Below, in pieces: positions 35,707-44,625 of a DNA stretch of 52,135 bases. Where the stretch lies: assembly GCA_007132725.1 (NCBI GenBank), contig SLOD01000031.1, positions 1-52,135 of the forward strand, in the 5' to 3' direction. Position 1 is the stretch's first letter. Every line of letters starts with the position of its first letter. The position numbers and the translations under genes were made by a program. Origin of the DNA: Candidatus Sumerlaeota bacterium (GTDB taxonomy: Bacteria; UBP6; UBA1177). The notes under the pieces are model-generated. The model did not search any database. It saw only the letters and a program-made list of their open reading frames with translations, and was not told where the DNA came from.

Positions 35707-36468
35707 ATGAAAGACGGATACGAACTGGTATATAAAAGACCTGATACGCTCCTTAGCAAAAGGATGCATTATTGTCCCGGATGTTTTCATTCAACGATGC
35801 ATAAAATCATCATGGAAGTGGTTGATGAAATGGGTATAGCTGAAGAGACCATAGGTGTGAGCCCCGTTGGATGTTCAGTTTTCGCCTATGACTATATGGA
35901 CATAGATTTTCAACAGGCTGCACATGGCAGAGCATGTGCTGTTGCAACAGGAATAAAAAGGTCTCTTCCTGATAAATTTGTTTTTACATATCAGGGAGAT
36001 GGTGACCTTGCGGCCATTGGTACAGCAGAAACTATTCACTCCTGCAATCGCGGTGAAAACTTCACTATATTTTTCATTAACAATGCTATTTACGGTATGA
36101 CGGGCGGTCAGATGGCTCCCACTACTCTTGAGGGACAGAAAACTTCAACAAGTCCTTACGGAAGAGATGTAAAGCATGTTGGACATCCTTTGAGAATGGC
36201 TGAAATGGTAAGCCAGCTTCCAGGTGTTGCCTATTGCGAAAGATTGGTTCTGAACACCCCTGCAAATGTAAGAAAAGCCAAGAAGTCTATAAAAAAAGCT
36301 TTTGATATTCAAAAACAGGGTCTTGGAATGACATTTCTTGAAGTTGTTTCAAACTGTCCTTCCGGTTGGAAATGCTCTCCTGTTCAATCCCTTGATTTTG
36401 TAGGAGAGAACATGCTTAAGTATTATCCGCTTGGCGTCAAAAAAGATGTCACAGCTAATTCAAACTAA
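35707..36468 (+). CDS. 2-oxoacid:ferredoxin oxidoreductase, beta (TPP-binding) subunit
   Basis: 253 residues; ATG follows GGGAGGAG, 12 bases after the alpha stop. Hallmarks are HYCPGCFHS, the Cys-containing GVSPVGCSVFAYDY, HGRACAVATGIKRS and the thiamine-pyrophosphate motif GDGDLAAIG ending in NNAIYGMTGGQ. It catalyses decarboxylation of the 2-oxoacid to an acyl-CoA with the alpha subunit. Third gene of the operon. Confidence 0.95.
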   Translation: MKDGYELVYKRPDTLLSKRMHYCPGCFHSTMHKIIMEVVDEMGIAEETIGVSPVGCSVFAYDYMDIDFQQAAHGRACAVATGIKRSLPDKFVFTYQGDGDLAAIGTAETIHSCNRGENFTIFFINNAIYGMTGGQMAPTTLEGQKTSTSPYGRDVKHVGHPLRMAEMVSQLPGVAYCERLVLNTPANVRKAKKSIKKAFDIQKQGLGMTFLEVVSNCPSGWKCSPVQSLDFVGENMLKYYPLGVKKDVTANSN

Positions 36469-36486
36469 GTAAAAAGGAGGAAAGAT

Positions 36487-37023
36487 ATGCTTCAGGAAAT
36501 GATTTTTGCAGGTTTTGGAGGACAGGGTGTTCTTTCAATGGGAAAACTTCTTGCCTATGCTGCAATGAAAGAAGGAAAAGAAATTAGCTGGATGCCGTCA
36601 TACGGGCCTGAAATGAGAGGTGGAACGGCAAACTGCATGGTAAATATAAGTGACACTCCGATATCGAGTCCTATTGTTCAGGAATATGATGTTGCTGTTG
36701 TTTTCAACCTGCCGTCACTTAAAAAATTCGAGCCTATGGTTAAGCCCGGGGGTATTTTGATATGGGAAAGTTCTACAATTAAAGAAGCCCCCACAAGAAC
36801 AGACATTAAAGTTTATGCTGTTCCTGCTATTGATCAGGCAACAAATGTAATAAAGAACACACAGGTTATGAACATGCTTGCTCTTGGAAGTCTCCTCAAA
36901 GTTAACCCCATTGTAAAGCCGGAAACTTTGCTTACAGCACTTAAAGACACTCTTCCTGAAAGACACCATAAACTTATCCCGGTTAACGAAGAAGCCATCA
37001 AACTTGGAATGAGCCTTGTATAA
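36487..37023 (+). CDS. 2-oxoacid:ferredoxin oxidoreductase, gamma subunit
   Basis: 178 residues; ATG follows AAGGAGG by 7 bases. The gamma domain signature is FAGFGGQGVLSMGKLLAYAA, then SYGPEMRGGTANCMVNIS and ALGSLLKV. It binds at the CoA side of the complex. Last gene of the delta-alpha-beta-gamma operon; a T-rich stretch follows near 37055-37063. Confidence 0.95.
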   Translation: MLQEMIFAGFGGQGVLSMGKLLAYAAMKEGKEISWMPSYGPEMRGGTANCMVNISDTPISSPIVQEYDVAVVFNLPSLKKFEPMVKPGGILIWESSTIKEAPTRTDIKVYAVPAIDQATNVIKNTQVMNMLALGSLLKVNPIVKPETLLTALKDTLPERHHKLIPVNEEAIKLGMSLV

Positions 37024-37133: not shown

Positions 37134-39344
37134 ATGAAAGCTATTATTTCTTTTTTTCTTGTCATTATAATGATGGCATCCTGTTCTTCAAAACCGTCAA
37201 AATTTGATGGGAACGATGATGATTTTAACTGGACAGAAAAAAGTGACAACGGAGGGTTGCCGGGCAATGATAATGATGTTCCGGAAAATAATGAAAATGA
37301 AAATACAGATGAAGAAAATGATGAAAACGATATCGTGGAAGAGACCAGAGAGTGTACAAATGAATGCGGTTTCGGGATAGAAGAACTTATTGGCGGAGAA
37401 TGGAAGAACTGTTCCGCTCCCGAACATGGTGACACAAGAGAGTGCTTCAACGCAAACGAATACGGTATCTGTGAGGGTACAGAGACTTGCAATCTTGAAG
37501 ATGAAGAAGATGAGTTCGGCTGGACAGAATGTGATGCAAAAACACCTGAGCCGGAAATCTATGACGGCATTGATAACAATTGCAGTGGTGAAATTGACGA
37601 CGGACTGGTCAATCCGGTAACTGACGGAGAAGTTGAAGAAGGACTTGTTTTTATAGATGCTGATGATCCTGATAATCCGACAGATAAAGATGGACTTTCT
37701 CTTTCAACTGTCAGCAGAACCCTTCCATATCTTTGGGCAGCAAATGAACAACAAGGTTCAGTCAGCAAGTTTAATACTCAGACACATAAAGAAGAAGGAA
37801 GGTACTGGGTTGGAACAAATCCGAGCAGAACAGCGGTCGATCTTGATGGAAACATGTGGGTTGGAGGTAGAGATGACGGCAGAGTTACAAAAATTCTTTG
37901 GGACACAACAAAATGTCCGGACAGAAACGAAAACGGCATAATAGAAACATCTTATGTTGATGAAATAGAAAATGTAGTTCAGAAAAACAGTGCAGCAGAC
38001 CCGTTTGCCGATGAATGTGTAGTTTACAGTGCCGTAACAAACCCCTCTTATCCAAGCATAAGAGGAATGGCTGTAGGAAGTGACGGAAGAGTTTGGATAG
38101 GTTACAGTTATGGTGGAATTCAATCTATAGACCCCGATACTTTTGAACTTGGTCCGTATATTCCTGCGACCAATCTTCCTCTTTGGAAACCTGACACAGA
38201 CAATGTTTTTCAGTTGACTGCTGAAACTGTCTCAATGTCCGGTGTTTATGGACTTATTTCAGATTCAAACGGAATACTGTATATCGTTGATATCGGGAAT
38301 AGGGGAAACCTTGGTGCCTATGATAGTGTTAATGAACAATGGATCGGTGTATATCAGAGAGACGGCAACTGTGGGTATGGGATTGCAGTTGACGGAAAGA
38401 ACAGGATATGGATGGGTGGCTGGCCCGACTGCGGCGGAGTTATACTATTTAATCCTGAAACAATGAAGTCCCATACTTTCGTTGTTCCACCCGGGACTGT
38501 GTTGACACCGAAAGGGGAATCGGGTGTTACTTTAATTGAAAGAGGTGCACCCGGAGGTGATCCCTATGACCCTCAACCTGGATGGAGACTTACGAGCACA
38601 ACAGGTGTAACTGTTGACCCTGCGACAGGAAATGTTTGGACATCATTTTTCATACTGGGGTATACAGGAAAGCTGATCGTTAACGAGGAAGACTTTTCTT
38701 CAAGCAAGTGGGAATTTATAGGAACAATGCGAAAAAGTGCCCCGCCTTATGATTTGCTTGACGGAGTTTGGAATAACGATTTAAGAGGAGTTGGGTTTGA
38801 TCCTTATGGTTATGCATGGACTCTGGGTCTTGGGAGTGACCGTGTTTTTAAACTTGATCCGGCAACAAATGAGAGGAGTACTGATTTACCTGTCGGAGTT
38901 ATGGTGGGAGAAGGAGGGGTAACATGGACCCATTACACATACAGTGACTTTACGGGATCAACTGCTTTTAATTTTACAGCTCCCAGGGGGATCTGGAGAC
39001 ACATTTTCGATAAAGCTTCTGACTGTTCTATTCCTTCAAGAATTGATGTAACAGCCTATGTTCCTGAAAAAACCTACATGGGTGTAAGGATCAGACCTCT
39101 TGACCTCGACAGCAATCCAATAGATGGATGGCTGCCGGAGATCGAGAATGGTGATGATTATTTTGATGTGCCGCAGGGAATGGGAGAAACTCTGATAGAA
39201 CTTGATGACTACAGAAGTTATTTTCTGACCGCTCAGAAGTTTGAAGTTGAGGTTTTTATGTCAACGACAGATAAAAACATAAGACCGATACTGAACGCTC
39301 TTAACATTATGTGGAAATATGACAAAGATTCCTGTGCTCAGTAA
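37134..39344 (+). CDS. MopE-motif and streptogramin-lyase-like propeller lipoprotein
   Basis: ATG 37134 after GGGGG opens a lipoprotein signal (IIMMASC). 736 residues. An Asn/Asp/Glu tether (about 25-75) precedes a Cys-rich part with the MopE-like motif YDGIDNNCSGEIDDG (about 143). Residues 200-620 are propeller-like, in the style of virginiamycin-B lyase/NHL repeats: YLWAANEQQGSVSKFNTQT, DLDGNMWVGGRDDGRV, GSDGRVWIGYSYGGI and DGKNRIWMGGWPDCGG. The C-terminal 100 residues form a beta-sandwich (TYMGVRIRPLDLDS). It is likely a surface-exposed binding protein; lyase activity is not claimed. Confidence 0.85.
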   Translation: MKAIISFFLVIIMMASCSSKPSKFDGNDDDFNWTEKSDNGGLPGNDNDVPENNENENTDEENDENDIVEETRECTNECGFGIEELIGGEWKNCSAPEHGDTRECFNANEYGICEGTETCNLEDEEDEFGWTECDAKTPEPEIYDGIDNNCSGEIDDGLVNPVTDGEVEEGLVFIDADDPDNPTDKDGLSLSTVSRTLPYLWAANEQQGSVSKFNTQTHKEEGRYWVGTNPSRTAVDLDGNMWVGGRDDGRVTKILWDTTKCPDRNENGIIETSYVDEIENVVQKNSAADPFADECVVYSAVTNPSYPSIRGMAVGSDGRVWIGYSYGGIQSIDPDTFELGPYIPATNLPLWKPDTDNVFQLTAETVSMSGVYGLISDSNGILYIVDIGNRGNLGAYDSVNEQWIGVYQRDGNCGYGIAVDGKNRIWMGGWPDCGGVILFNPETMKSHTFVVPPGTVLTPKGESGVTLIERGAPGGDPYDPQPGWRLTSTTGVTVDPATGNVWTSFFILGYTGKLIVNEEDFSSSKWEFIGTMRKSAPPYDLLDGVWNNDLRGVGFDPYGYAWTLGLGSDRVFKLDPATNERSTDLPVGVMVGEGGVTWTHYTYSDFTGSTAFNFTAPRGIWRHIFDKASDCSIPSRIDVTAYVPEKTYMGVRIRPLDLDSNPIDGWLPEIENGDDYFDVPQGMGETLIELDDYRSYFLTAQKFEVEVFMSTTDKNIRPILNALNIMWKYDKDSCAQ

Positions 39345-39347
39345 GAT

Positions 39348-41522
39348 TTAATCAAGCAGACTCACTATCTCATTTTTAGTTTCATCATCTTCTGTAAATA
39401 CAAATATTCTCGAAGGAACTTCATCTGAAAGAGGAATGCCGTTTAGATTGACCGTTCTTTGTACATTATTGAAATAGATGTAATCGGGTTCTGTTACAAT
39501 TCCGTTCCTTAACTCAAAAAAGTGGTTGATCCCGATATCATTAGGAACATTAAAAGTGATGTCGGGAAATGCGGGAACAAGCTCCCAGTGAGGATCTTTT
39601 TCGGTCTGGCACTGAAGTTCTGTCAGAGGACCAGTGTTTGCAAGGTTTATAACAACCAAAACAAGTATCTTTTCTCCCCTTAAAAGTGTGGCGATAGTAT
39701 TTTCGTCTGTCGGAAGAACCGATCCGAAATCTGCGACCCTTAGATGATTTCTCAGAGCTCTCACATCTTTGTTCATGTTATGTATCTCATCCCATGTTGC
39801 AGGGTTTGAGTCGGCAAGAGCCATGTTTGTCTGAAAGTACATCAATCCTTTTGCTCCGGCGGCAAGAACGCTTGCGATACTCAATCTCTGCTCCATTGCA
39901 TTGGGGGCCCTTTTAAATTTGTCTCCGACAAGTGGCGGCCATGTTATTTCCCACATTGTTCCAAGTGCCTGAGAATAAAGCCATGTAGGAAGGGGCATAT
40001 GGTTTTCCTTAACTGCAAAAAGCATATCAAAAGCTGCTCTTAGAGGGGGCATGTTTGCTTCAACAACAGTGATATGGGGTGCACATGCAGCAATATAGAA
40101 ATCAAATCCCTGAATATCTGTGCATCCTGAAAATGCACCGTTGTATCTGTGTCTTGAACCTCCAAGATATACAGGGAGCTCAGGATAATGTCTCCATGAA
40201 AATTCTGTGTGGTTTTTATATTTTTCCCACGGTATATTCGCAAATTCACTTCCAGGGTCATTATATATTTTTTTATCCGCTTCATCTCCAGAAAAATATG
40301 CAGCGACCCTTTCTGTATTTGTAATGCCGGGAGTCCCGTCAGGTTTTTTCATTATATTTCTTTCAGGTAACAGCCAGAAGTCATGTTCCACAGCAATATT
40401 TTCGACCATGTCTATATTGTCAAACCCGCAAGTAGGTCCTGTTCCGCCATGGATAAAAAAAGTATCAATGCCTGCATCTCTGTGTTTTTGATAATTGGCA
40501 TCATTAGCTCCGGGGAAAGGACAGTCACTTGTTGATTGCCATGTTTCTATTGGATAAAATTCCCTTATTATCCGTCCTCCGGCAACACTGGGTTTTGCAT
40601 TATCAAACTTTGCAACTACACTCCAAAGTTCTCCAAGTTCCGCTTTTTCACACAGATCAAAAGTCCACATGACATGTTCATTGGGAGCGATGGATTTGTC
40701 AGCAATACAAGCAGAATCGGTAATATCCCTGCCTCCATATAAAAGCTGGATCAAGTTCTGAGTCTGGGAAGTTCTATTATGAAGATGAATGACAATTTTT
40801 GTATAATCATTGGTTGTGGTGACATAAGTTATGGGAATCTCTATCAGGTTTACGGGAAATGTTCCATTAAGTGCAATGCCATTGTCGGTCTCGATCGTAA
40901 CGGTTCCAGTTGCAGAAGTATCCCATGATTTTTCCTGTGAGTGAAAAGCTACCCACACAGGTTCACCAGCCTTCACCTCAAAAGGATATGGATGAGCCCA
41001 CACCATTTTTCTCTCTGCAATTGTATCATCAACCAGTTGTCCGTTTACTTTAAGAGCAGTGACACTTCCTGTAACGGAAGATGTTCCTATAATATGGAAT
41101 CTTCCACCATCTTTGGGAGCTGGGATTGGATTAGTCAGGTCTCCCTCTCTATAATGTTCATAATAGAAATCTTTTCTAAAAGAAGCATATATCGTGCTGT
41201 CTGAAGCCTGAGCCATTGCATCACATGATGAAACAGTCGGAGAACAGGATTTTACTTTTTTTATCAGCCCACTGAAAACATCTTCATCATCAGTCTCAAA
41301 GTTATCAGTGTCAAAATCACTGATCTCTAAATCTTGTGTCTCAAAATCATCTGTTTCCCAATCTCCAGTCTCAAAATACCCATCCTTGGTTTCAGTTTCG
41401 TCTTGCAAGCCAGTTTCAAAATCTTCAGTCTCATTGTCATCGTATTGGGGCAAACCTTTTGTGTTTGAACATCCTGTTAAAACCATAATGTATGCGATAA
41501 AAAAGAATGAAAAAGATTTCAT
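39348..41522 (-). CDS. Acidic-tether lipoprotein with TIM-barrel-like glycosidase-style domain
   Basis: ATG 41522 has AGGAGG 7 bases upstream; lipobox IMVLTGC. 724 residues. The tether (about 22-80) repeats short FETDD/WETDD-type acidic units. Residues 90-330 look like beta-sandwiches. Residues 330-640 resemble a (beta/alpha)8 barrel: HRDAGIDTFFIHGG, YFSGDEADKKIYND, LPVYLGGSRHRYNG, QGFDFYIAACAPHI and AAGAKGLMYFQTNM. A C-terminal beta domain follows. Similarity to glycoside hydrolases is by pattern only and no catalytic pair is assigned. It lies downstream of the membrane-bound AraC regulator gene, which may control it. Confidence 0.8.
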   Translation of the reverse strand: MKSFSFFFIAYIMVLTGCSNTKGLPQYDDNETEDFETGLQDETETKDGYFETGDWETDDFETQDLEISDFDTDNFETDDEDVFSGLIKKVKSCSPTVSSCDAMAQASDSTIYASFRKDFYYEHYREGDLTNPIPAPKDGGRFHIIGTSSVTGSVTALKVNGQLVDDTIAERKMVWAHPYPFEVKAGEPVWVAFHSQEKSWDTSATGTVTIETDNGIALNGTFPVNLIEIPITYVTTTNDYTKIVIHLHNRTSQTQNLIQLLYGGRDITDSACIADKSIAPNEHVMWTFDLCEKAELGELWSVVAKFDNAKPSVAGGRIIREFYPIETWQSTSDCPFPGANDANYQKHRDAGIDTFFIHGGTGPTCGFDNIDMVENIAVEHDFWLLPERNIMKKPDGTPGITNTERVAAYFSGDEADKKIYNDPGSEFANIPWEKYKNHTEFSWRHYPELPVYLGGSRHRYNGAFSGCTDIQGFDFYIAACAPHITVVEANMPPLRAAFDMLFAVKENHMPLPTWLYSQALGTMWEITWPPLVGDKFKRAPNAMEQRLSIASVLAAGAKGLMYFQTNMALADSNPATWDEIHNMNKDVRALRNHLRVADFGSVLPTDENTIATLLRGEKILVLVVINLANTGPLTELQCQTEKDPHWELVPAFPDITFNVPNDIGINHFFELRNGIVTEPDYIYFNNVQRTVNLNGIPLSDEVPSRIFVFTEDDETKNEIVSLLD

Positions 41523-41569: not shown

Positions 41570-41690
41570 GTTAACTGCAAAATAACCACCGGGAACACTA
41601 TGTGTTTTGTGCGAGGGTTACATTTATTGTGCCCCCGGCGGTAATCAGCCCGAACGCCAGTATTTTGAGTTACCGTTTGGGTCTTCTGAT
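41570..41690. other. Highly structured intergenic element (RNA or DNA), unknown family
   Basis: A GC-richer island in an AT-rich gap. Inverted repeats: GTTAACTGCAAAATA (41570-41584) with TATTTTGAGTTAC (41661-41673; the repeat is 13 of 15 with one bulge); ACCACCGGG (41585-41593) with CCCGGCGGT (41634-41642); hairpin AACAC-TAT-GTGTT (41594-41606); and ATCAGCCCGAACG (41644-41656) with CGTTTGGG plus CTGAT (41674-41690, TCTT bulge). The outer right arm lies in the loop of the last hairpin, so the set implies a pseudoknot or two alternative folds. Wobble pairs favour different strands for different stems, so orientation is unresolved. On the minus strand it would be a leader of the 41522 lipoprotein gene. 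Confidence 0.5.
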
Positions 41691-41797
41691 GTTTAAAATA
41701 TCATGATAAAAACAAAAATCGTCCTTCCTAAAAAATTCAGACCGATTATTTTTTATGCAGGGTAAGAATTGTTTAGGATGTACCCGGAGGAGTTTTT

Positions 41798-44566
41798 TTA
41801 AGAAAGTTTTTTTCTGTATTCGGTCGGGGTCATATTTGTAAGCTTTTTGAAAGCGGAATTGAATGATGATTTTGTATTAAACCCGGCTTCATAAGCAATA
41901 GAAATTATATTTTCATTTGAGTTTTCAGGAAGACTCAGCTTTTCCATAACTTCGCTTGTTCTGTAAAGACTTAAAAGTGTGTAGAAAGTCATCCCGGTGT
42001 GGAGATTGATGATTTGAGACAAGTAAAGATGTGAGATGGAGAGTTTTTTAGCTATATCATGAATTTTTATGTTAGGATTGCGATAAATTTTTTCATTGTC
42101 CATTAGGCTGAAAAGATTTTCCAGACACTTTGTAGACACTTCTTCACTCAGTTTTGCTTTTTCATATTTTTTTTCAGCAGCTATTGCCCGTCTTTCAAGT
42201 TCCTTATTGGCTTCTTTGATTTTATTTGTTTTCCTGATGTATATTATGGTGAAGGGAACAGCGGTGATCGTCAGAACTATTAAATAGAGAAATATATAAA
42301 ATCCTCTTGTCTGATAAAAAAGAGGTTCAAGAACAAATTCAACTTGATTCCCCTCAAAGTTCCACACACCTTCATTGTTCGATCCTATTACTTTAAACCG
42401 GTACCTCCCGGGTTTAAGATTGGTGTAGTAGGCAACTCTTCTATTCCCGGCATCAATAAAATCTTTATCAAATCCTTCAAGCATATATTTGAACTGAACT
42501 TTTGCCGGATTTGTAAAACTTGTTGCAGTATAATGGAACTCAAACCTTTCACTTCCCGCATCAAAAACAAAAGGTTCTTCATAATTATATACTTGTGAAA
42601 AAGAATTTTTTTCTGAAACCAAAGATTCAATAATAATTTCCGGAACAATGTCGTTAACTCTTTTTACTGAAGGATCAAGCTTGGCAACACCATTTATTGT
42701 TGGAAAAAACAGTTTGTTGTCAGGAGAAATTGCAACTGACGGAACATACCCTCCGTTGCACTCCATGCTCTTCATTCCATCGGAAGAATCATATCGTCTT
42801 ATTGAAGATATTTTTTTTCCAGTTTTTCCATTTTCTTTCAAATCTTTGATCGATGCTTTAAATATTCCTCTATTGCTTGAAGCAAAAAGGTTTTTTTCAT
42901 ATGAGACTATCGCATAAATAGAATCTCCAAAAAGGAAGTCTTTATCTTTTACGGTATAGATCACATCTTTTTTCAGATAATTTAATCCTGCATCAGTTCC
43001 AATCCACAAAATTCCTTCTTTGTCAAAATAAAGTGAGTAAATTGCGTTGCCGGAAAGCTCACCGCCTTTTCCAAACTCTCTGAAGCTTTCTTTATCGAAA
43101 AGATAGAGTCCATTCATTGTGCCTACCCAGAATTTTTCAGGACTCTTTTTTAGAAATGAGAGTACTACTCCATCTCTTAGGCCTTTATCTTTTCCATAAT
43201 TTTCCACAACCTCAAAATTATCGATCCTGAATATTCCTTCTCCGTGAGTTGAAACAAATATTTCTTCCGAAGCAGTCTGAACAATTGTGCTTACAGGTTT
43301 GAGAAATTTTTTTCCGTCAACAGTTACATTTTTATTTGTTCCATCTTTTTTTAGAACTGTTATTCCGGAAACTGTTCCAACCCATATATTTTTATCGGAA
43401 CATTCAGCAAGAGAAAGAATGCGGTTATCTATCAGTCCGTTACGGGTATTGTAATTATAGATGGACCTGTCAGGAGCCATCATATCAAGTCCCTTCAAAG
43501 CGGTTCCTATCCACAGATTACCATAACTGTCAAAAAGTACGGGAAGAATATCCCCGGATGAAAGTCCGTCACTGGTTGACAGTGTCAGTATTTTTCCGTC
43601 TGTAAAAAGGTTGATTCCTCCACCGCTTGTACCTACCCACAAATTTCCTTCCGTATCTTCAATTATTGATCTCACTGCGTTATAGGTGAGTCCATCTTGA
43701 GTAGAGAAAGATTCAAAACTCCCATCTCTGAATCGGTGTAAGCCTTTTTCAGTACCAACCCACAGGCTTCCGTGACGATCTTCATATATGACATTTACGA
43801 AATCAGCCTCAATTGAACCGGGTATAAAAAAAGAATCAATTTTCTCGTTTTTAAAAGAATGGAGAAAACCGTTTTTAGTTCCGGCAAAAAGATCTCCTGA
43901 AGAGTTGACATAGACATTTGAAACATTCGAATTCATAAGCCCATTCTTCTCAGTAAAGATGTTAAGTACGTTCCCATCCTCAAAAAAAACGAGACCTTTT
44001 CTGGTTCCTATATAAACCCTTTTACCATGTCCCGTTACACTTCTTATGTTGTTATCAGGGAGACCGTTCTTTGTAGAATATTTAGATATTTCACTGTTGC
44101 ATATTTTGTTCAGACCATGATTGAAAGTTCCAATCCAGGCACAGTTGTTATCATCAATATATATCGTTCTTACGAGGTTCCCTGACAAACCGTTATCAAT
44201 ATTGAAAACTTTCATTTTTCCGTGTTTAAGGTTAATAGCACCCCCACCGTAAGTTCCGATCCACAAAGAATTATCTTTCCCAAGAGCGAGTGTTCTTATA
44301 TCGTTGCTGCCAAGTTCAGGATAGTTTGTCCGGTTATAAACCCTGAATGAAGCTCCGTCAAATCTAACAAGTCCTTCCTGGGTTGCTATCCAGATAAATC
44401 CATTGTCGCTTTGAACAATTGAGTGTGCTGAGTTTTGAGGCAGGCCGTCAACACTTTGCCATGAACGATGAACATAGTGATGCAGTTTTTTTGAAGGATC
44501 CATTCCGTAAGATAAAAAAGGAGTTGATATTGATAGAATTAAAATTAAGGTTTTAATAAAAAACAT
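41798..44566 (-). CDS. Membrane-bound double-propeller/Y_Y_Y sensor fused to AraC-type DNA-binding domain
   Basis: ATG 44566 (AGGA 10 bases upstream) gives a signal peptide (LILILSISTPFLSYG). 922 residues. About 14 regulator-propeller repeats can be counted (for example GFIWIATQEGLVRFDG, SLWIGTYGGG, GNLWVGTSGGGINLF, GILWIGTDAGLNYL), enough for two seven-bladed propellers. A Y_Y_Y domain follows (about 675-742, LKPGRYRFKVIGSNNEG), one membrane span (about 752-775), a short coiled coil, and an AraC-type double helix-turn-helix (about 830-922: IHDIAKKLSISHLYLSQII; ISIAYEAGFNTKSSFNSAFKK; MTPTEYRKKL). No kinase or receiver is present. Predicted to sense an envelope ligand and act on DNA directly. 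Confidence 0.92.
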   Translation of the reverse strand: MFFIKTLILILSISTPFLSYGMDPSKKLHHYVHRSWQSVDGLPQNSAHSIVQSDNGFIWIATQEGLVRFDGASFRVYNRTNYPELGSNDIRTLALGKDNSLWIGTYGGGAINLKHGKMKVFNIDNGLSGNLVRTIYIDDNNCAWIGTFNHGLNKICNSEISKYSTKNGLPDNNIRSVTGHGKRVYIGTRKGLVFFEDGNVLNIFTEKNGLMNSNVSNVYVNSSGDLFAGTKNGFLHSFKNEKIDSFFIPGSIEADFVNVIYEDRHGSLWVGTEKGLHRFRDGSFESFSTQDGLTYNAVRSIIEDTEGNLWVGTSGGGINLFTDGKILTLSTSDGLSSGDILPVLFDSYGNLWIGTALKGLDMMAPDRSIYNYNTRNGLIDNRILSLAECSDKNIWVGTVSGITVLKKDGTNKNVTVDGKKFLKPVSTIVQTASEEIFVSTHGEGIFRIDNFEVVENYGKDKGLRDGVVLSFLKKSPEKFWVGTMNGLYLFDKESFREFGKGGELSGNAIYSLYFDKEGILWIGTDAGLNYLKKDVIYTVKDKDFLFGDSIYAIVSYEKNLFASSNRGIFKASIKDLKENGKTGKKISSIRRYDSSDGMKSMECNGGYVPSVAISPDNKLFFPTINGVAKLDPSVKRVNDIVPEIIIESLVSEKNSFSQVYNYEEPFVFDAGSERFEFHYTATSFTNPAKVQFKYMLEGFDKDFIDAGNRRVAYYTNLKPGRYRFKVIGSNNEGVWNFEGNQVEFVLEPLFYQTRGFYIFLYLIVLTITAVPFTIIYIRKTNKIKEANKELERRAIAAEKKYEKAKLSEEVSTKCLENLFSLMDNEKIYRNPNIKIHDIAKKLSISHLYLSQIINLHTGMTFYTLLSLYRTSEVMEKLSLPENSNENIISIAYEAGFNTKSSFNSAFKKLTNMTPTEYRKKLS

Positions 44567-44625
44567 ATTTTTAAAATCCTGAACCGTTAACATAAAATCA
44601 ATGATACTTTAGCATTGTCTTATGC

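Follow-up and report, generated by a model that had tools for sequence, protein, structure and literature searches.

A covarying RNA hairpin in one bacterial family, with a conserved loop that may pair with the ribosome-binding site of its own mRNA

A covarying structured RNA hairpin has been identified at a single locus in four genomes of one bacterial family, and its existence is near certain. The locus was analyzed in a stretch of 52,135 nt from Candidatus Sumerlaeota bacterium (GCA_007132725.1, contig SLOD01000031.1, the whole of it hereafter called the window), belonging to the genome coded G000, and in the relatives G001, G002 and G004 from the same family, G001 being the sole further member of the window's genus among the genomes searched. 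The best explanation, which we favor with moderate confidence, is that the hairpin is carried in the 3' portion of a surface-lipoprotein mRNA, the gene for which we term DNFRW, and pairs with the Shine-Dalgarno region of that same mRNA. The hairpin in the window would probably be a recent orphan left after the loss of DNFRW. The coordinates of the features are collected in Table 1.

Table 1. Features of the hairpin locus in the window (positions are those of the forward strand)
Feature	Position	Strand	Basis or remark
Membrane sensor-regulator	41798..44593	-	Pfam scan: Reg_prop propeller, Y_Y_Y, AraC-type HTH; synteny
Apparent remainder of the DNFRW leader/promoter region (upstream part)	41695..41747	-	85% identical to L021 9329-9382 (upstream of G001 DNFRW)
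Scar of the apparently deleted DNFRW (~1.5 kb in G001)	41684..41694	.	Separates the remaining upstream leader segment from the element
Upstream conserved box GACCCAAACGGT (AACCCAAACGGT in G001, G002)	41672..41683	-	Sequence comparison
Entire stretch, matching G001 at 97% identity (3 differences in 103)	41580..41682	-	DNA search
Conserved RNA hairpin	41585..41642	-	14-bp stem, 30-nt loop; covariance model and pair counts
Stem arms	41629-41642 and 41585-41598	-	ACCGCCGGGGGCAC / GTGTTCCCGGTGGT
Invariant loop core TAACCCTCGC[A/T]CAAAACACA	41601..41620	-	20 nt, RNA UAACCCUCGCWCAAAACACA
T-rich stretch TATTTT, terminator-like	41579..41584	-	Directly 3' of the stem
Lipoprotein gene	39348..41522 (ATG at 41522)	-	Downstream of the hairpin element

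One copy of the hairpin is present in each of the four genomes, and it was not found in the remaining genomes searched; the pattern of the loop core matches 4 of 386 genomes, with zero mismatches and at the same locus each time. A shorter DNA-search match to the element was obtained in G004, and no matches were found in viral, phage and plasmid collections. The possibility of an interspersed repeat element (REP or MITE), to be recognized by copy number as the earlier note had proposed, is thus dismissed by the single copy per genome. The same note had correctly placed the element in a GC-richer island (GC content 0.53–0.55 at 41600–41689 vs 0.20–0.33 on both flanks) within the 275-bp gap between the stop codon of the regulator (41798) and the start codon of the lipoprotein gene, and had been right in naming no family for it, as the region gives only chance-level Rfam matches, all of them below threshold. 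Near-matches to the loop in genus g3 (L073, L074, and L075) were rejected: they have no stem and another context, and the model gives 17–20 bits over the loop; all three share CTCGCACAAAACACATCACGTCAA..., which adjoins genes of a different small family and whose likeness to the loop core is fortuitous. G026 and G018 likewise yielded weak model hits (E 0.3–1), which were discarded since the sequences appear to be unrelated. Outside the covarying hairpin, the upstream box ACCCAAACGGT (41672–41683) is the same in G000, G001, and G002. As regards the taxonomic assignment, the GC content of the window is 39.5%, and that of other CSSed genomes, according to the main text of a Sumerlaeota genome paper (PMC8092238), about 65% (contig L055 of G001 is SLGQ01000139.1), so that the Sumerlaeota phylum label may be wrong.

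Folding energy alone makes a weak case for structure, being only moderately better than that of shuffles on either strand: the z-scores are –1.9 (p 0.041) on the plus strand and –2.4 (p 0.019) on the minus strand for the 108-nt core, and –1.6 and –2.0, respectively, for a 141-nt segment. For the G004 gene, a z-score of only –1.8 is reached against codon-preserving shuffles (86 of 2000 are equally stable), so that structure in G004 is also not proven by energy alone. The earlier note had held that an RNA element should covary among its homologs, and it does so: over the four sequences the stem is paired in 55 of 56 cells, with compensatory changes on both sides in 11 of the 14 pairs and 16 further pair types. 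None of 500 shuffles matches any of these values, and pairing falls to 38–55% in a control with the register slid (some 40% for a shift by one position). Without G004, both sides have changed in 9 of 14 pairs in the three other sequences. The G002 stem, AGGCATCCGGTG/CACCGGATGCCT, has been rewritten in the same register as ACCGCCGGGGGCAC/GTGTTCCCGGTGGT of the window, its loop TAACCCTCGCTCAAAACACA is identical save for the single A/T position, and arm swaps between G002 and the other genomes allow only 3–6 of 14 pairs to form. These counts come from four sequences representing three independent lineages, and are to be read with the caveat of their relatedness; chance is unlikely despite the few sequences because of the effect size and the slid-register control. 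The covariance model R1, built from three sequences, scores 84.2 bits in the window, 84.8 in G001 and 77.0 in G002, and picks up G004, which was not in the training set, with 57.3 bits (E-value of the search within G004, 1.6e-10).

Several stems had been drawn at this locus in the earlier note, and several can indeed be drawn, but just one, that around the large loop, is kept in the relatives. The interlocking of stems is likewise real as far as GCCCGAACG/CGTTTGGGT and GGCGGTAAT/GTTACCGTT overlap on the plus strand, but the other drawn stems are not common to all relatives, and the proposed pseudoknot or alternative switching fold is not conserved and not supported. The CGGTAA/TTACCG alternative pairing was also considered as a switch and rejected, being missing from G002 and G004 by eye.

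All wobbles in the stem are G-U on the minus strand and would be A.C if read on the plus strand, and it is this stem that is the longest unbroken one on the minus strand of each sequence, with 14 bp in G000, 14 in G001, 12 in G002, and 18 in G004. Because the wobbles are G-U and the stem is unbroken there, we assign the RNA to the minus strand, where it is co-oriented with the genes for the regulator, DNFRW and the lipoprotein. The initial plus-strand reading is not supported: both in the window and in G004, A.C mismatches break the conserved stem on that strand. A small peptide encoded on the plus strand, corresponding to a 20-aa ORF in G001, was rejected as well: by eye, its start is not conserved and the few differences are not synonymous.

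The strand is also relevant for a diverged AdoCbl-II (cobalamin) riboswitch (RF01689), which would lie on the plus strand and face the 3' end of the regulator. Such an arrangement is found in Listeria, where AspocR involves a cobalamin riboswitch facing the 3' end of a regulator. AdoCbl-II is the lowest-E sub-threshold Rfam match (16.8 bits, E 0.67, plus strand 41578–41667), but its score is less than half of the gathering score (36.5), the 97%-identical copy of G001 yields no match (E up to 10, larger search), and this weak resemblance exists only on the strand opposite to the one indicated by the stem and is not conserved in homologs, the aligned core being different in G002; the riboswitch has next to no probability. 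A strand-specific fold with a variable stem and conserved unpaired bases would also suit folded single-stranded DNA, that is, an attC-like recombination site, as suggested in the earlier note, or another DNA element. We consider it extremely unlikely and find no support for a recombination site: there is one copy per genome at one locus, the loop is conserved here rather than stem boxes, viral, phage and plasmid matches are absent, and the integron integrase (TIGR02249) is over the curated cut-off in none of the four genomes (its sub-cut-off hits also appear in all 14 control genomes).

Comparison of gene order identifies the partner of the hairpin. The regulator is the upstream neighbor of the element in G000, G001, G002 (as a broken copy), and G004. 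The downstream lipoprotein gene is present, within the family, in G000 and G001 only, whereas the element is found in G002 and G004 as well; this gene is not the conserved partner of the element. Its initial designation as the putative target of the regulator was not upheld, given this narrow distribution and the fact that pairing of the loop with the leader of the window lipoprotein gene is no better than with shuffles. The N-terminal part of the lipoprotein (window 41262–41445; L021 7420–7600) carries (D/E)-(F/L)-E-T-(G/D)-D repeats, whose number differs between the two species, and appears to be a fast-changing acidic tether.

In G001 the order on the minus strand is regulator, DNFRW, element, and lipoprotein gene; DNFRW is a Cys-rich surface-lipoprotein gene with DUF4215 repeats, named after its C-terminus, DVDNFRW. 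In G004, the regulator and DNFRW are followed by a 330-aa gene with the element sequence in its 3' part, and in G002 a broken regulator is fused to the 3' part of DNFRW, followed by the element, which starts a few bases past the DNFRW stop codon, and by a convergent gene. In all three genomes, the element lies within the 3' region of DNFRW, the gene adjoining the AraC-type regulator. The DNFRW C-terminal domain is present in exactly these three of 28 genomes of the phylum, and the carriers of the element are the three DNFRW genomes and the window's own. The fused G002 gene (L063 921–2617, G002:C252) encodes a regulator without its middle and HTH end that runs into the DNFRW repeat region, either through a true deletion, in which the DNFRW leader would have been lost, or through a false join in the assembly.

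The invariant loop core is antisense to the ribosome-binding site of DNFRW (GCGAGGGA), about 16 nt of the core pairing with it in two blocks, GCGAGGG and TGTGTTTT, in G001 and G004. The DNFRW leaders of both genomes carry TGTGTT...TTTGCGAGGGA ahead of the ATG, and in each of them (CATTGTGTTTGTGTTTTTTAGTTTCTTTGCGAGGGAAGTCAGTATG in G001 and CACTGTGTTGTGTTGTAAATCATCCTTTGCGAGGGATACCATG in G004) two blocks are complementary to the core, CCCUCGC of the loop pairing with GCGAGGG of the leader. To the G001 duplex the loop contributes CCCUCGCA and AAAACACA, together 16 of 17 consecutive nt, and the leader UGCGAGGG and UGUGUUUU; the paired loop bases fall on the invariant core. The duplexes of the two leaders with their own loops (–20.6 kcal/mol in G001 and –22.5 kcal/mol in G004) take the top two ranks among 60 start regions drawn from the window and the two contigs, and equally good duplexes are formed by 10 of 2000 leader shuffles for G001 and by none of 2000 for G004. 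As the net energy after opening both sites is –14.6 (G001) and only –6.7 kcal/mol (G004), the loop–leader interaction is plausible, but not forced, and in plain cofolding both RNAs stay in their own folds. Two DNFRW leaders are readable, that of G002 being missing from its contig together with the N-terminal part of the gene, and since the G001 and G004 leaders are homologous, they do not double the evidence for pairing. The paired blocks of the loop core are invariant, so that covariation is not possible there, and the Shine-Dalgarno sequence itself constrains a part of GAGGG.

These observations suggest a possible mode of action. The minus-strand hairpin would normally form the 3' part of the DNFRW surface-lipoprotein mRNA, encoded just downstream of the sensor-regulator, with the covarying stem displaying the conserved loop. 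Two blocks of the loop would base-pair with the Shine-Dalgarno region in the 5' leader of the same mRNA, either in cis or via a released 3' fragment; as a search of the four genomes yielded no Hfq, a trans-acting fragment is less easy to envisage. The pairing would block ribosome loading and might expose the duplex to RNase. Because the pairing block contains the Shine-Dalgarno sequence, repression of translation is the expected effect, and the complementarity suggests that such pairing and repression may indeed take place.

The hairpin may also end the transcript, as in three of the four genomes the stem is followed by a T-rich run (7, 9, 8, and 4 Ts in the first 12 nt past the stem in G000, G001, G002, and G004, respectively). 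A GC-rich stem preceding such a run in G000, G001, and G002 resembles an intrinsic (Rho-independent) terminator, and we have considered a hairpin that acts solely as a terminator of DNFRW transcription or, in genus g1, as an attenuator of the lipoprotein gene, with the loop binding a protein or ligand in place of the DNFRW leader. The convergent gene situated right behind the hairpin in G002 agrees with termination, and the start of the g1 lipoprotein gene about 63 nt downstream with attenuation. Nevertheless, a terminator needs no 30-nt loop with an invariant core, the G004 hairpin is located within coding sequence and has no T run, and the lipoprotein gene supposed to be attenuated is absent from G002 and G004; moreover, a terminator scan, which allows for loops of 3–8 nt only, saw no intrinsic terminator here. 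We regard this explanation as possible, but rather unlikely, while a terminator role in addition to the pairing of the loop with the DNFRW leader is compatible with the T-rich runs.

In the window DNFRW is absent, and the element directly follows a segment similar to the region upstream of G001 DNFRW (Table 1). Comparison with G001 indicates that DNFRW has been deleted from this genome between the upstream leader and the hairpin, so that both the gene and the half of its leader with the ribosome-binding site are gone; the genomes are drafts in many contigs, and this junction, like the broken G002 locus, could in principle be an assembly error. The deletion would leave the hairpin before the lipoprotein gene, where no action on DNFRW is possible. 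As DNFRW is gone, the loop has no known partner in the window: GCGAGGG occurs there once, on the strand opposite the loop itself, and TTTGCGAGGGA has a single occurrence in the whole genome, inside coding sequence. The hairpin may still be active in the window as a leader or attenuator of the lipoprotein gene, or as a trans-acting RNA. Action in trans, which we regard as unlikely, would fit with the hairpin being intact though DNFRW is lost, and with the retained leader region lying directly ahead of it. Against action in trans stand the two motif counts and the lack of Hfq, and a recent deletion would account for the intact hairpin with no added function; we thus tend to view the hairpin here as an orphan rather than as an RNA acting on other mRNAs.

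In G004 the element stretch constitutes approximately codons 265–300 of the 330-aa gene (L022 6714–7706, P0001), whose product belongs to a lipoprotein family with no Pfam match, present in 19 of 19 family genomes searched, in several copies per genome. The alignment of the G004 protein with its relatives extends to either side of the element with no insertion, so that the noncoding copies probably had a coding ancestor; stops and a frameshift interrupt the corresponding frame in the window and G001. Coding descent probably explains the origin of the element, not its present function.

Given the coding stretch in G004, the multi-copy protein family and the broken frames, the hairpin could be regarded as a by-product of coding sequence, a decaying remnant of a G004-type 330-aa gene. 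This is very unlikely to be the whole explanation, as neutral DNA would not exchange nine base pairs compensatorily in G002, and a coding origin is compatible with an RNA function now; a pure pseudogene remnant is overturned by the rewritten stem around the same loop in G002. Neutral DNA would also not stay 97% identical between G000 and G001, whose neighboring genes have diverged by 35–52% at fourfold sites (dS 0.55–1.5). Since a few nearby coding stretches, around 37588 and 36384, are equally similar to G001 over 103 bp, the similarity of the element is by itself suggestive, not conclusive. These coding stretches (window 37588–37730 and 36384–36500) reach 97–100% identity to G001 within genes that are 79–89% identical, the former surrounding an EIYDGIDNNCSGEIDDG (MopE-like) motif, and perhaps result from exchange among paralogs.

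The coding origin allows for a more elaborate history, in which a regulatory RNA was born in coding sequence, where it still resides in G004, was freed by gene loss in the sister genera, and in the window's organism has persisted after the loss of that gene and of its own target gene, being now transcribed from the leftover leader and acting in trans on other mRNAs. We consider this history improbable.

The proposed pairing of the hairpin loop with the DNFRW ribosome-binding site has a counterpart in icaR of Staphylococcus aureus, where the UCCCCUG motif in the 3'-UTR pairs with the Shine-Dalgarno sequence of the same mRNA in cis or in trans, leading to repression of translation and possible RNase attack (PMC3868564). 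In both cases the 3' region contains a C-rich anti-Shine-Dalgarno motif that is complementary to the Shine-Dalgarno sequence of its own mRNA. Unlike in icaR, the antisense sequence here occupies the loop of a covarying hairpin shared between genera, is accompanied by a second block and, in one genus, lies inside coding sequence; the gene and the phylum are unrelated. OppZ and CarZ of Vibrio cholerae are autoregulatory sRNAs derived from 3'-UTRs that repress their own transcripts by base pairing (PMC7398697). As in the system proposed here, an RNA derived from a transcript's 3' end is directed at this very transcript, but OppZ and CarZ are sRNAs released from the mRNA, whereas the four genomes considered here lack a detectable Hfq.

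Few bacterial mRNAs are known whose 3' part pairs with their own ribosome-binding site, the staphylococcal icaR being the closest that we have found. If correct, the proposed pairing would provide an evolutionarily conserved example from an uncultivated lineage, with the antisense presented by a covarying hairpin. The four genomes would then display side by side several stages of such an RNA, namely, within coding sequence, as a 3' UTR, and orphaned by gene loss. The hairpin itself constitutes a new RNA family, with no such family in Rfam and with a covariance model at hand.
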